DNA from: Glutinoglossum americanum
Lineage: Eukaryota > Ascomycota > Geoglossomycetes > Geoglossales > Geoglossaceae
NCBI GenBank assembly: GCA_020080175.1
Contig: JAGHQL010000056.1
Coordinates: 1 to 64,000, forward strand
Direction: 5' to 3'
Length of the DNA: 64,000 bases
Part shown: positions 1,064 to 50,877 of the stretch, in pieces
Position numbering within the stretch: the stretch's first letter is position 1
Layout of the letters: each line of letters opens with the position of its first letter
Notes under the pieces: model-generated
Seen by the model: the letters and a program-made list of their open reading frames with translations, nothing else
Databases searched by the model: none
What the model was told of the DNA's origin: nothing
Translations under genes and position numbers: made by a program

Positions 1064-4000
1064 TCACCACGTGAAGAGCATAAGGGCGGGATTGAGCGCG
1101 ATCGGGAGGAAGAAATGGCTGAAGACGATTGTGACGAGCGGCCAGATGGCGACGAAGGTGTCGATTCGCCATAGGGGTGGCAGCGCGAAAGCGCCGGCGA
1201 TCATGCCGGCCGTGCAGAGGATGCAGAAGAGGAACGTGTACTTGAATTTGCCCATGACCTTTGGTATTTCCTCGAAGAAAGTTGTGTCCTCTACCTCCTT
1301 CGCCGTCGCTCCCCAGGTCATGTCGATCCCAAACATGTGACAGAGCAGCGCTTGGCTTACGTGTATCGAGACACCCCCTAGGAAGATGGTCATGAGGAAT
1401 ATCCATCTGAAGTTTTCGCCCACTATTGGTCGCCCTTTTTGTCAGTCGAGTGCACGGCCGCGGGGAGGGCAAGTAGGTCACGGGTTGAATTGAATGCTCA
1501 CAGGCAGCGAAGAGGCTCTTTTCCTCTAAACGGTACCTCAAGACAGCCAGCGAGATGTTGCCCAATGTATTAAACACAATTACGATAGAAAAGTACACCT
1601 GGAACGAGTCGAGGTAGTACTTGTCGAGATGTCCCACAAACCAACCCATGAGAAAATAATTGGCCAATGTCAAAATCCATGCTGACCCGATTGCATAGTA
1701 CGTGCCGATATAGGCGATGATGGTGATTTTGGAAGGCAGCGGCATGTTAGAGCCGATAAACTTGAGGAAGAGCGGCGTGAGAGGCCCACGAGTCAACCAG
1801 TAACGAATGGGATGGAAGATAAGTTCGTTGCAACCGTACGCGTACTTTTCCCAGCGCGCCAGCTCGTCGTAGACGGTGAGGGAGACCCCTTCTTTGTAAC
1901 CGTCTCCAGCGTACGCCGCCAGGCGGATTATGTGGCCGTTGGTTTGCAAACGGAGAGCCATGTCAAAATCTTCAGAAACGGTGGATTCGGACCAGTACTT
2001 TTCATAGCCATCCTCGTCCTCGTAACCAATCTGCTGTATAGCAGACCAGCGGAGTATGGCATTGTGCCCGACGAACGGGGCAATGTCTCCATTAGCGACG
2101 GCAAACTTAATAGCGGTATAGATCAAATTAGTGAAAAACCTGCGCGATGGTCAGTGGTTGCGGTAAAAAAAAAAAAACTAAGCCCGACAATTCTCACGTA
2201 ATTCCGTTCTCGAAGAAACTCGTCGTGACATTCATAACGCCGGACGCGAATTGAATGATGGCCACTTCCGGCGAATTCTCCATCTCGCTAACCGCATCCA
2301 GGAAAGAATCCTCAGGGATCCTTGTATCCGAGTCGACTAGGAAAAAAAAAGGGATTCTATCAGCTAGAGGGACCTTTGAAGAAAATAACCTGGAAGCACC
2401 TACTCAGAAGGATATAATCCCCCATTCGCGTGTTCCCAGCAGCCCACGTCCTACCGTCGTCCTCGTCCAACACCTCCCTGAGGCACTGCATGTAGGCTTC
2501 ATCTTCATCCTCTTGTGTCCAGGTCCCGACTCGATGCACCCTTTCCAGCTTTTCTTCAATTCTGTTGCTGACCATGAGAGCGTAATTCATATTTGAAGCC
2601 TGGCGAATATTTCAACTTCTCAAGCTCAGAATCGGTCAAAACGAGGGTCGTGTTACCTTTTTGAATTTGCCCCTCCTCAAAAACAGTTGCTCGCCCTCTT
2701 TTGGTTTTGAGTTGTGCCTTGGTCGGGCTACCCAGCCGATATTGTGATCGTGGTAGAACCCCTTCCGCGCTTCCGCGTCCTCTTCAGAGAGTAACTGCAT
2801 ACCGTCGTCGTTGATAAAGATGTTCGCAGTTCCTCCTTGCAGGCCATATGTGGACATGGCAGCTTTAACGGATTTAATGGTGGGTTCGATGACGGCATGG
2901 AGGCCTTCTTTATAGACGGGCATTTGTATGGTTACATGCGGAAGTGCTCCTTGATCTCGACGGAGACGACGTGGTGGTTTGGCTGAGTAATACTTGGAGT
3001 TTTGGCTCAACTGGCTAATCGGTCCACAGAGCTGAGCCAGGCAGCCAGCAACGCTCTGCATGAAGAACTTGGAGATGGTCAGTTCAGGGGCGGTCTAGCC
3101 CTTACGCCGGTGAACACATACCAAACTTAAAAATATCTGAGCAGGAACAACTGTCACCAGTGCCAACCGGACGAAGGCCCCGTCTACTTTAGTTTGAAGT
3201 GCGAGCCGTTTCCAACCATTTCCCAATGCGGCAATGAGTATGGCTAGCGTCACCCCGGTGAGGATCGACTGGATCAGCACCGTAGGCCGAGACTCCACAA
3301 CTAACGCCTCTTCCAGATCTGGGATCGATACGCCGGACCCAGCATCAATTTCTCCCACTTCAGTGATGCTAGTCGATGGGCTATTCTTGCTATAAGTTTT
3401 CTCATCCCATGGCGAATTATCCTTCCATATCATCTCCATCAATTGCTTTTCAATTCGCGCAGTTCGTACCAGCACGTGCCGGGGCTCGTCGTCCCACACC
3501 ACCAGCATAGCTACATCCGCTATAAACGCAGCGAAGTGATTTTTTTGGGCGCGCTGGAGGTCCTGCATGGTTGGAAGAATTTGTAGTCGTAGTCCATCTA
3601 ACAAGGGGACAAACGGAACGTTTCTATTTCGAAGAAACAGCTTAATGACTCGGGTCTGAACCGTTATTGCCACCTACACCATAGGCCATATAAGCAGAAA
3701 CTCCATAAGGGAAGGCAGACCGAAGCTCACTTGGACATTCATAGATTCTATAGCATCAAAAAATCCGCCATCGTGATACCGCAGTTCAGGCGGGCAGCAC
3801 GAGTAGACCCCTCTTTTTTTCTTGAGGACGACTCCCTCGCCACTTGCGCGGTTGGCCCAGAGGTTCGCCATCTGCTCTTGGTGTAGCCAATTGACCATGA
3901 CATCGGCCTTGATTTCGGCAATTTCATCTTCGGCGCCGTTCCGGAAGTCTCCCTCGGGATATATGGAAGATGGCCGTGAGGTGTGTGCTGAGGAAACCCA

Positions 4001-48159: not shown

Positions 48160-48839
48160 GCCCTGCGCACTAGGTCGACTTCCGCACTTCTCAGTAAAAG
48201 TTGTGTTTTTGCATCCAACCATTTCCGTCCTTTGCTTTCTCGACTCACTCTACGACGACAGTGTTGCACCTTCGTCCCTTTCTAGCCATCGCCATATACC
48301 TCTCGTTTTCAGGCGTCGGCGCGCGTTTTTCATTTAAAGCAGGGTCTTTTGTTGGGAATATTATCACCGTTTATTTTACTTGTTAACCGCATTGCGTGGG
48401 GTCTTGCGTTCGTTCGATACAAGCACTAATGGGAGCGGATTCCGCTCAATAATAATATTGCATGGCATGTGGGCCGCGGGACAAAAATGCACTAGGCCTT
48501 CGGGATCTCTTGTTCTGTTCTGTTTTATTTGTGCTTTGCTCTTTCTAGCCCTTCGTTTTTCACCTTAGATCGAGCAGATCAACTTTTTCCGTCTTAGATA
48601 ATTGAAAGCCATTTTAATGGCTACAAATTCGCGTCCACCTTTACTACACGGCAAGTGTATAGTCTGCCCATCCATTTGACTAGAACACTATGATCGCCTA
48701 TTGTGCGTCTACTCCCTATGGAACCTGCCTCTTTCTCAACGGCTACCCCGAGATCCCCGAACCACAAAAGGAAAATAACATGGAGATGGTGTAATAGATG
48801 GATGTATGAACAAAAGAAATGAAAAAAAAAATATATTGA
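48160..48839. other. Intergenic region upstream/downstream of tRNA
   Basis: 3' flank of the hypothetical gene and 3' flank of the minus-strand tRNA. A run of T on the tRNA strand (the A tract at 48822-48830 on the plus strand) starts 10 nt beyond the tRNA 3' end and should act as the Pol III terminator. Confidence 0.5.
48822..48830 (-). terminator. Pol III oligo-T terminator of tRNA-Leu
   Basis: On the minus strand a T run follows the tRNA 3' end by about 10 nt. A run of four or more T is the standard RNA polymerase III stop. Confidence 0.6.
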
Positions 48840-48994
48840 TGCGAGCTGTGAGGTTCGAACTCACGCATCCTTTCGGATAACAGAAAGCGAAAGTAGAACT
48901 TAAGTCTGTCGCTGTTCGTCCCAATTTGATTAGTCAAAAGTTTGGCTATGTGGCAGAATTTTGACTTACCCTTAAACCACTCGGCCAAACTCGC
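48840..48994 (-). tRNA. tRNA-Leu(UAA) with two introns, one spliceosomal-like in the D-stem
   Basis: Minus-strand type II tRNA. Acceptor strands GCGAGTT and AGCTCGC pair over 7 bp, followed by discriminator A. The A box is TGGCCGAGTGG. The T arm GTGAG-TTCGAAC-CTCAC is perfect and holds the B box. The variable arm ATCC-GAAA-GGAT is typical of Leu. The anticodon stem ACAGA/TCTGT encloses CTTAAG with anticodon TAA at 48900-48902. A 13-nt segment (48886-48898) lies after position 37, where eukaryotic tRNA introns normally sit. A second, 58-nt segment (48912-48969) splits the D-stem between GG and C. It begins GTAAGT, has GACTAAT about 18 nt before its end, and ends CAG. Removing both leaves 84 nt with the D-stem GCC/GGC restored. 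Confidence 0.85.
48912..48969 (-). other. 58-nt GTAAGT..CAG insertion in tRNA-Leu D-stem
   Basis: Candidate spliceosomal intron inside a Pol III gene. It has the full fungal set of signals: GTAAGT at the 5' end, branch-like TTGACTAATC, and CAG at the 3' end, with a length normal for this fungus's mRNA introns. AGTCAAAA directly after GTA is perfectly complementary to TTTTGACT directly before the branch site, so an 8-bp stem would form. It sits far from the anticodon-loop position used by tRNA splicing endonuclease. Confidence 0.7.
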
Positions 48995-49164: not shown

Positions 49165-50877
49165 ATGGCAGCACCGGTCACCAGTTTACAGCCGGTCAAG
49201 CTGCCAGCTGGGCCGTCGCCCTTGACGCCTGAGCAACAATATTGGCGCACATTCCGTTCACAGCTTCTCATTCCTTCGCCATCCTCCTACGCAGTTACAC
49301 ATATATCTGCCCCTCTACCCTCACCCAATGGCCTCAATATCGCATTGACGGAATCGTTTGTTGTCACAAGTGGCACGCGTTTACAGATCTTCTCTAGTCG
49401 GACCCGCCAGGTAACAAAAACTTTCTCCCGGTTCACCGACATAGCCCATTCGGGTGAAATCCGTCGTGATGGCAAGGTTGTGGTCGCCGGGGATGACAGC
49501 GGTCTCATACAAGTCTTTGATACCACATCGAGAGCTATTCTTAAAACATGGAACGAGCACAAACAGCCTGTATGGACAACTAAGTTCTCACCGACGGATA
49601 TAACAGCTTTGATGTCGGCGAGCGATGATAAAACTGTTCGACTGTGGGATCTTCCATCGCAGAGCTCAGTGATGACACTTACCGGACACGAAGACTACGT
49701 CCGAAGTGGGGCATTTCTACCCGGCTTCTCGTCAAAACTACTTACATCCGGATCGTACGATGGTACGGTAAGGATTTGGGATCCGAGGACTGCGGGTAGG
49801 TCAGTCATGACGTTTAAGCACTCCTCTCCGGTCGAAAGTGTCCTCCCCTTGCCATCAGGTACAACCACACTAGCGTCGTCAGGTAGCCATATATCTGTCT
49901 TGGATATGGTTGCTGGGAAACCCTTACGACTACTGCAAAACCATCAAAAGACTGTGACGTCTCTCTGCTTGGCGTCAGATGGTAATAGGGTTATTAGCGG
50001 AGGACTAGATGGGCATGTCAAAATTTTTGAGACTACGGGATGGAATATGGTTGCGGGATCTAAGTATCCGTCACCGATTCTATCGGTGGGCATCGTTCGT
50101 GCTGGGGCTAGTCAGGAGGATAAACATCTTATCGTGGGCATGCAATCGGGCCTACTCTCTATACGGACACGACTATCCGGGCAACAGAAAGTGCGTGAGA
50201 GAGAAAGGCGGAAGGAAATGAAAGCACTAATTGAAGGTACTGTCAATGAATTTGATAAGAAAAATGCAAAGAGGAAGAAGAAGGGGCGAGGTTGGGAGAA
50301 AAGACTTAGAGGGCGGGAATTCATAGGAGAGGGTACAAGTGTGGTCATCGAGGGGAATGATAGAGAAAGGGTAAAAAAGGAGACAGTATGGGAAAGAGAT
50401 TTGAGGCATGGAAGATACACTTCCGCTTTGGATCGGGTATTGGACAGCGTAGGTTCCCCACCCGCTAAGTGCCGTCTCTGAATTGCGCGTTTTTGCCGTA
50501 TAACGTCCGCTCAGCTGCGGTAAATAATATATGACTAATGGGAGCAAGTACAGTCACAACCCCCCCTTACCATTCTGACACTCCTGACCGCACTTCGGCA
50601 TCGCTCAGCTATGCGCTCAGCACTTCAGGGGCGTGACGAAGTGACTCTTCAACCCATCCTCAAATGGATCACCAAATTCGTAGCTGACCCGCGATACGTC
50701 AGCACAGCCGTGGAGGTTGCTGTTTTGATAGTTGATCTGTACTCTGCGCAGGCTGGTCAGTCATCAGAAATCGATGATCTCATCAGCCGACTGCACGATC
50801 GTGTCAGGCGTGAGGTCGAGAGGGCACAGCAAGCGTGCCAAACTAGCGGAATGTTGCATATGTTGATGAGCGGGTGA
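49165..50877 (+). CDS. UTP15: UTP15, U3 snoRNP / small-subunit processome WD40 protein
   Basis: A 535-aa nucleolar protein of the t-UTP subcomplex, needed for pre-18S rRNA processing and rDNA transcription. Exons 49165-50448 and 50554-50877. The N-terminus has TPEQQYWRTFR, then WD40 blades: DGKVVVAGDDSGLIQVFD, DITALMSASDDKTVRLWDL, SSKLLTSGSYDGTVRIWD, TTLASSGSHISVLD and GNRVISGGLDGHVKIF. A basic stretch (KKNAKRKKKGRGWEKRLR) precedes the Utp15 C-terminal helical domain, read across the intron as LTLLTALRHRSAMRSALQGRDEVTLQPILKW in sense. Domain order and length match UTP15. Confidence 0.95.

Follow-up and report, generated by a model that had tools for sequence, protein, structure and literature searches.

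Short inserts with spliceosomal-type signals in six nuclear tRNA genes of Glutinoglossum americanum

Does a nuclear tRNA gene of this fungus carry an mRNA-type intron beside a canonical tRNA intron? To our knowledge, mRNA-type introns are generally assumed to be absent from tRNA genes. The question is raised by one locus within a stretch of 64,000 nucleotides (hereafter the window), where an earlier note had described a type II tRNA-Leu(UAA) gene that closes fully once segments of 58 nt and 13 nt are removed, the longer of which lies in the D stem and runs from GTAAGT through GACTAAT to CAG. Coordinates, letters and the ARAGORN call all agree with this description.

The interrupted tRNA-Leu(UAA) gene

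The gene and its parts are arranged as follows.

48840..48994, minus strand: tRNA-Leu(UAA) gene, type II, with two introns; full cloverleaf once 58 nt and 13 nt are cut out
48970..48994, minus strand: exon 1, 25 nt (letters GCGAGTT TGGCCGAGTGGTTTAAGG), comprising the acceptor 5' strand, the A box and the D arm up to position 24
48977..48987, minus strand: A box TGGCCGAGTGG, positions 8-19, unbroken and upstream of the 58-nt insert (from the sequence)
48912..48969, minus strand: spliceosomal-type intron, 58 nt, between positions 24 and 25 in the D stem (from splice motifs and excision tests)
48899..48911, minus strand: exon 2a, from position 25 (C25) through G37, with the anticodon TAA (from ARAGORN and the sequence)
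48886..48898, minus strand: canonical tRNA intron, 13 nt, 3' of position 37 (ARAGORN i(39,13))
48840..48885, minus strand: exon 2b, comprising the anticodon stem 3' strand, the long variable arm, the T arm, the acceptor 3' strand and the discriminator A (from the sequence)
48851..48861, minus strand: B box AGTTCGAACCT, positions 52-62 (from the sequence)
48822..48831, minus strand: run of ten T (T10), a likely Pol III terminator (from the sequence)

The two promoter boxes were recognized by what we take to be their consensus sequences. The placement of the A box at positions 8-19 and the position of the B box follow the numbering in the available excerpts of PMC3978253. The 58-nt insert, whose letters run GTAAGTCAAAATTC...TTTTGACTAATCAAATTGGGACGAACAG, combines a GTAAGT 5' site with the branch motif GACTAATC (the A lying 18 nt before the end) and an AACAG 3' site. 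The neighboring ORF (49165-50481) encodes UTP15, and its best species-named relatives, each with 85% identity, come from two Geoglossomycetes, Trichoglossum hirsutum and Geoglossum umbratile; the next species-named relative shows 71% identity. By this one protein, the source would most likely be placed with the earth tongues, close to both species. Elsewhere in the window, at approximately 25.5 kb, long repeat-rich ORF translations contain XXXX, which probably reflects a short stretch of N in the assembly.

In its unspliced form the Leu(UAA) gene is not called: ARAGORN finds no tRNA genes in the 64-kb window (the intron setting of that run is not stated), and Rfam at gathering scores gives no matches in the window, the unspliced gene included. 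With the 58 nt excised, ARAGORN names tRNA-Leu(taa) with a 13-nt intron. Of the 3105 windows that were cut out in turn, 109 leave a sequence that ARAGORN reads as Leu(taa), and four are GT-AG cuts with a branch motif; the 58-nt cut is the only one to combine the two. When the letters of the insert were shuffled singly, 1 of 20000 shuffles passed the GT...CTRAY...AG test. The pattern GTAAGT-N30-60-CTAAT-N10-20-CAG has two overlapping matches in the 64-kb window, both starting at the GTAAGT of this insert (chance mean 0.12; two matches in 1 of 100 shuffled windows).

Interrupted tRNA genes and the U6 gene elsewhere in the genome

The phenomenon proved wider than first noted, with interrupted tRNA genes for four further isoacceptors and an interrupted U6 snRNA gene found elsewhere in the genome. 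The assembly (G000; 25,765,983 bases in 317 contigs) was searched with the RF00005 profile, which, with 63 of the 786 first-look candidates scored, gave at least 44 matches; contig C161, taken for the mitochondrial contig, accounts for 16 of these. Further genes came from B-box patterns with and without a terminator run, after which the fetched stretches were read by eye. The census comprises 49 nuclear tRNA genes for 45 isoacceptors, of which 43 genes are uninterrupted (canonical introns aside; all 43 verified in fetched DNA) and six are interrupted. The candidates for fetching were picked by eye, so more tRNA genes may exist. In this census, Gly(GCC), Asp, Ile(AAU) and Gln(UUG) alone have two genes each, and overall there is nearly one gene per isoacceptor. 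Isoacceptors were assigned by eye; ARAGORN on raw loci misses some genes and disagrees on others (Ser(cga) against Arg(TCT) by eye at L017, Arg(tct) against Gln(CTG) at L079, and Thr(ggt) against His(GTG) at L144). The claim of the earlier note that a nuclear tRNA gene carries a spliceosomal-type intron is supported by inserts in 6 of the 49 genes and 5 of the 45 isoacceptors, in addition to U6.

Several side observations were made during the census. Many nuclear tRNA genes carry canonical introns (judged by length), and many B-box matches in the assembly are not accompanied by a cloverleaf. Two tRNA-like loci (L062:1396-1522 on C39 and L107:177-302 on C273) match RF00005 at 38.6 and 42.1 bits, respectively, with no readable anticodon; the inserts in their anticodon arms hold a common stretch, GATTTTCTGCTTTCGGAGTTCTGCGATGATACCC, part of which resembles what we take to be a box C motif. 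Two other loci (L097 on C222 and L133 on C63) possess a T arm, an A-box-like GGCTTAGCGG and similar middles without a full cloverleaf, gave no Rfam match at E<=0.5, and perhaps represent a tRNA-derived element. Finally, two loci (L064 on C47 and L088 on C155) resemble the 3' half of tRNA-Asp, the 5' half not being recognized nearby.

Besides Leu(UAA), five tRNA genes contain in their 5' half an insert of 47-61 nt of the form GT...CTAAY...AG. The inserts, with their positions, locations and signals, are as follows.

Leu(UAA): 58 nt after position 24; the gene of the window; GTAAGT...GACTAATC...AACAG
Leu(AAG): 47 nt after position 30; contig C302 (L115); GTAATT...GACTAACC...GCAG
Ile(AAU), two genes: 51 nt after position 28; contig C241 (L043/L049 and L048); GTGAAT or GTAAAT...AACTAATT...GTAG or TTAG
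Gln(UUG): 61 nt after position 15; contig C252 (L130); GTTGGT...TACTAATC...GCAG
Arg(UCG): 57 nt after position 16; contig C292 (L146); GTTAGT...TGCTAACC...GTAG

The insert sites, as read by eye, are 15/16, 16/18, 24/25, 28/29 and 30/31, none of them the canonical 37/38. After excision, ARAGORN returns the expected tRNA for all six genes (Leu(taa), Leu(aag), Ile(aat) twice, Gln(ttg) and Arg(tcg)) and places canonical introns that measure 13 nt in Leu(UAA), 15 nt in Leu(AAG), 17 nt in Gln and 12 nt in Arg. When the unspliced sequences are run with a 30-nt ceiling on introns, four of the six genes yield no call and both Ile genes are misread; raising the ceiling to 70 nt gives Ile(aat) with a 51-nt intron for both Ile genes, Pyl for Leu(UAA), Ile(aat) for Leu(AAG), Lys(ctt) for Gln and no call for Arg.

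Across the 2040-3105 cut windows tried per gene, the GT-AG cut of the insert is among those that restore the tRNA in all six genes. The splice-motif cut is unique in Leu(UAA) and Leu(AAG), has one additional candidate in each of Gln and Arg, and has three and two additional candidates in the Ile genes. Between 31 and 563 cut windows per gene restore the expected tRNA, a tolerance such that ARAGORN alone does not fix the insert boundaries. Letter-by-letter shuffling of each insert (20000 times) produced 1-9 sequences that pass GT...CTRAY (8-20 nt)...AG, a figure that takes no account of the 1-6 alternative cuts per insert that give identical exons.

Two sets of related genes bear on the history of the inserts. 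The Ile(AAU) genes, located approximately 13.6 kb apart on one contig with 40-nt flanks that are dissimilar by eye on either side, have spliced exons identical at 74 of 74 positions and inserts identical at 38 of 51, with the splice motifs kept; conserved exons and splice motifs with a drifting remainder make up the pattern of a used intron. For Gln(UUG), an uninterrupted paralog (L124 on C61) reads GTGTAG TGG where the interrupted gene (L130) reads GTGTAG[61 nt]TGG, and thus presents the empty site, although the two forms could stem from two genomes in a mixed assembly. Pairwise comparison of the inserts gave p<0.05 for 4 of 21 pairs (300 shuffles each), of which the Ile pair alone stands out clearly; similarity in the remaining three may reflect shared motifs.

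All six interrupted genes display an A box, a B box and a T-run terminator (by eye in the five beyond Leu(UAA)). The six inserts all fall within positions 15-31 (in our own numbering), downstream of where the A box starts and upstream of the anticodon. The Gln and Arg inserts split the A box; the Gln intron begins GTTGG, which leaves TAGTGTAGGTTGG, an acceptable A box, and in Arg the A-box match is only partial. TTTT, a possible weak Pol III stop, occurs in the Leu(UAA) insert and in one Ile insert. Five T in a row occur in no insert, an absence that carries little weight because 34 of 40 likely mRNA introns also lack such a run. Judged from the sequence, the layout of the inserts fits transcription by Pol III.

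The sole U6 match over the Rfam cut-off (L161:170-349, equivalent to C280:33219-33398; 47 of 1361 candidates scored) spans 180 nt compared to the 105-nt model. It contains a 70-nt insert, GTAAGT...CGCTAACC...GTAG (letters GTAAGTAG...TTCGCTAACC...GTAG), placed after ...GATACAGAGAAGAT. With an intron in the U6 gene, the spliceosome presumably already handles at least one other Pol III transcript in this genome. A B-box-like GCGTTCGAATC was also observed within this spliceosomal-type intron.

Splice signals and alternative explanations

As a comparison set, reading frames in the window and in 52 loci (221,993 bases, with overlap among some of the loci) were used to infer mRNA introns of this genome, a 5' site of the form GTRNG[TAC] being required. 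A branch motif was present in 48 of 172 candidates compared to 3 of 93 in the reversed control, which left 40 distinct introns; a scan of the window alone found the motif in 7 of 23 candidates and in 0 of 17 of the reversed control. The 40 likely mRNA introns are 43-98 nt long, have CTRAY 7-38 nt from the end, and terminate with CAG (31) or TAG (9). The inserts (six in tRNA genes and one in U6) are 47-70 nt long and so lie inside this range; all seven have GT...AG ends at an excisable position and a branch A 10-18 nt before the end, likewise within the mRNA span, and CTAAY is found in all seven compared to 20 of the 40 mRNA introns. The earlier description of the segment as exactly like the mRNA introns of this genome holds for Leu(UAA); GTAAGT is shared by Leu(UAA) and U6, whereas the remaining five of the seven inserts have 5' sites outside GTRNG[TAC] (GTAATT, GTGAAT, GTAAAT, GTTGGT and GTTAGT). 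The mRNA set was preselected for GTRNG[TAC], so the frequency of weak 5' sites in the genome is not inferable from it. As a guess, the strong branch sites may make up for the weak 5' sites.

Short motifs are easily found, and some GT-AG+CTRAY segment of 40-65 nt is present by chance in 3 of the 43 uninterrupted tRNA genes, so unrelated insertions or assembly artefacts that merely resemble introns have to be considered. Against this stand seven loci with excisable inserts, each of which passes at 1-9 in 20000 shuffles, the same site in two diverged Ile copies, and the empty site of the Gln paralog; given the insert shuffles, the pattern count in the window and the control with uninterrupted genes, chance or artefact was rejected, its probability being close to negligible. 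The inserts of 47-61 nt seem too short for either group I or group II introns. The tRNA endonuclease might instead cut the inserts at a bulge-helix-bulge (BHB) motif, which would make them ectopic tRNA introns like those of Cyanidioschyzon merolae and certain archaea. Eukaryotic examples of ectopic introns in the D arm have been described (PMC3978253 and PMC4090602, in the excerpts available), and an alternative frame of Gln(UUG) (shift -1) has a 4/4 central helix together with a 3-bp outer helix. However, among the 23 frames over the seven inserts, a 4/4 central helix occurs in one, and full central, inner and outer helices occur in none under strict geometry. The BHB moreover accounts for none of the GT...CTAAY...AG motifs in every insert, including that of U6, a known host of spliceosomal introns. 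On the strict geometry and these motifs, introns of the BHB type were rejected as a most unlikely explanation.

It could also be that the interrupted genes are inactivated copies and that unseen intact copies serve the cell, which would agree with the supposition in PMC4090602, as far as its excerpts go, that an insertion in the D or T arm marks a eukaryotic tRNA gene as a pseudogene, mostly one of many synonymous genes. The existence of an uninterrupted Gln(UUG) paralog is compatible with such a scenario. However, a query with the spliced exons of the five tRNAs (E<=10) recovered from the assembly the interrupted genes and the one uninterrupted Gln(UUG) on C61 (82%), and no uninterrupted Leu(UAA), Leu(AAG), Ile(AAU) or Arg(UCG), whereas the 40 isoacceptors outside the five interrupted ones were found uninterrupted. 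The recovery of Gln(UUG) indicates that this query is able to detect uninterrupted copies. An uninterrupted Leu(UAA) copy in particular, named in advance by the earlier note as the case that would speak against it, was sought in the 25.8-Mb assembly and not found. The 317-contig assembly is possibly incomplete, so an uninterrupted copy could be missing from it; Val(UAC), which was sought in the assembly by B-box patterns, was not found either. All six spliced genes are nevertheless complete, and the uneven divergence of the Ile exons and inserts, with the splice motifs kept, counts against pseudogenes, of which even decay is expected. Given the results of the spliced-exon query of this assembly and the Ile comparison, inactivation was rejected as very unlikely.

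Predicted processing, known systems and implications

Of the explanations considered, we favor the gain of short spliceosomal introns of the U2 type by six nuclear tRNA genes that are functional and transcribed by Pol III; the spliceosome would remove these introns before the tRNA endonuclease acts. On the signals described above, this is very probably the case. Pol III would transcribe the full tRNA gene, insert included, from its A and B boxes, and the spliceosome would recognize GT, CTAAY and AG in the precursor and excise 47-61 nt as it does from mRNA. Removal of the insert would let the tRNA fold, and the tRNA splicing endonuclease and ligase would then take out the 37/38 intron in Leu-UAA, Leu-AAG, Gln-UUG and Arg-UCG. 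As we understand it, the endonuclease gauges the folded tRNA body, so the D-arm and anticodon-stem introns are presumably removed first. The introns possibly originated by reverse splicing of an excised intron.

Spliceosomal introns are present in the nuclear rRNA of lichen-forming ascomycetes (Pezizomycotina), and these resemble the inserts in being mRNA-type introns in a structural RNA; the rRNA host transcript differs in being long and, as we take it, made by Pol I. According to the available excerpts of PMC5832005, no small structured RNAs other than U3 and U6 are known to carry introns frequently, U6 introns are known in fungi, and 133 of 138 spliceosomal introns of fungal U3 snoRNA are located in the 5' half. 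The fungal U6 introns are similarly short GT-AG introns with a branch site in a small Pol III RNA, whereas in the present case the host is a tRNA, five isoacceptors are affected, and four of the six products also need the tRNA splicing endonuclease. The U3 introns share with the six tRNA inserts the spliceosomal type, the structured host RNA and the location in the 5' half, but U3 is not a tRNA and is subject to other promoter constraints. The tRNA genes of C. merolae and of the nucleomorph of Guillardia theta likewise have introns in the D and anticodon arms, and some of these genes contain further introns as well. In the excerpts available on these two systems, however, no GT-branch-AG signals are reported; the introns of C. 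merolae are of the BHB type, and those of the G. theta nucleomorph are 3-24 nt long, with splicing that is described as not understood. The canonical 37/38 introns are also present in four of the six interrupted genes, and the inserts differ from them in position, length and motifs. Among the open-access titles and abstracts listed, no nuclear tRNA gene was described as carrying a spliceosomal intron; on that scope, priority is not proven. Viral contigs were also scanned for a 5' splice site downstream of a Leu A box, with no matches.

Neither ARAGORN nor Rfam, in the runs made here, called the Leu(UAA) gene, and similar genes may therefore hide in published fungal genomes. If the five sites represent separate gains, introns entered tRNA genes at least five times. 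The empty site of the Gln paralog and the diverged Ile pair provide exact sites at which the gain of introns by structured RNA can be tested. As far as the genomic data go, it is quite probable that the spliceosome would be needed for the tRNAs of several codons apparently without another tRNA (which we take to be Leu UUA, Leu CUU/CUC and Ile AUU/AUC), and that single pre-tRNAs would pass two unrelated splicing machineries in turn. If true, spliceosomal introns can invade another class of Pol III genes, and in this fungus the spliceosome would feed directly into translation.
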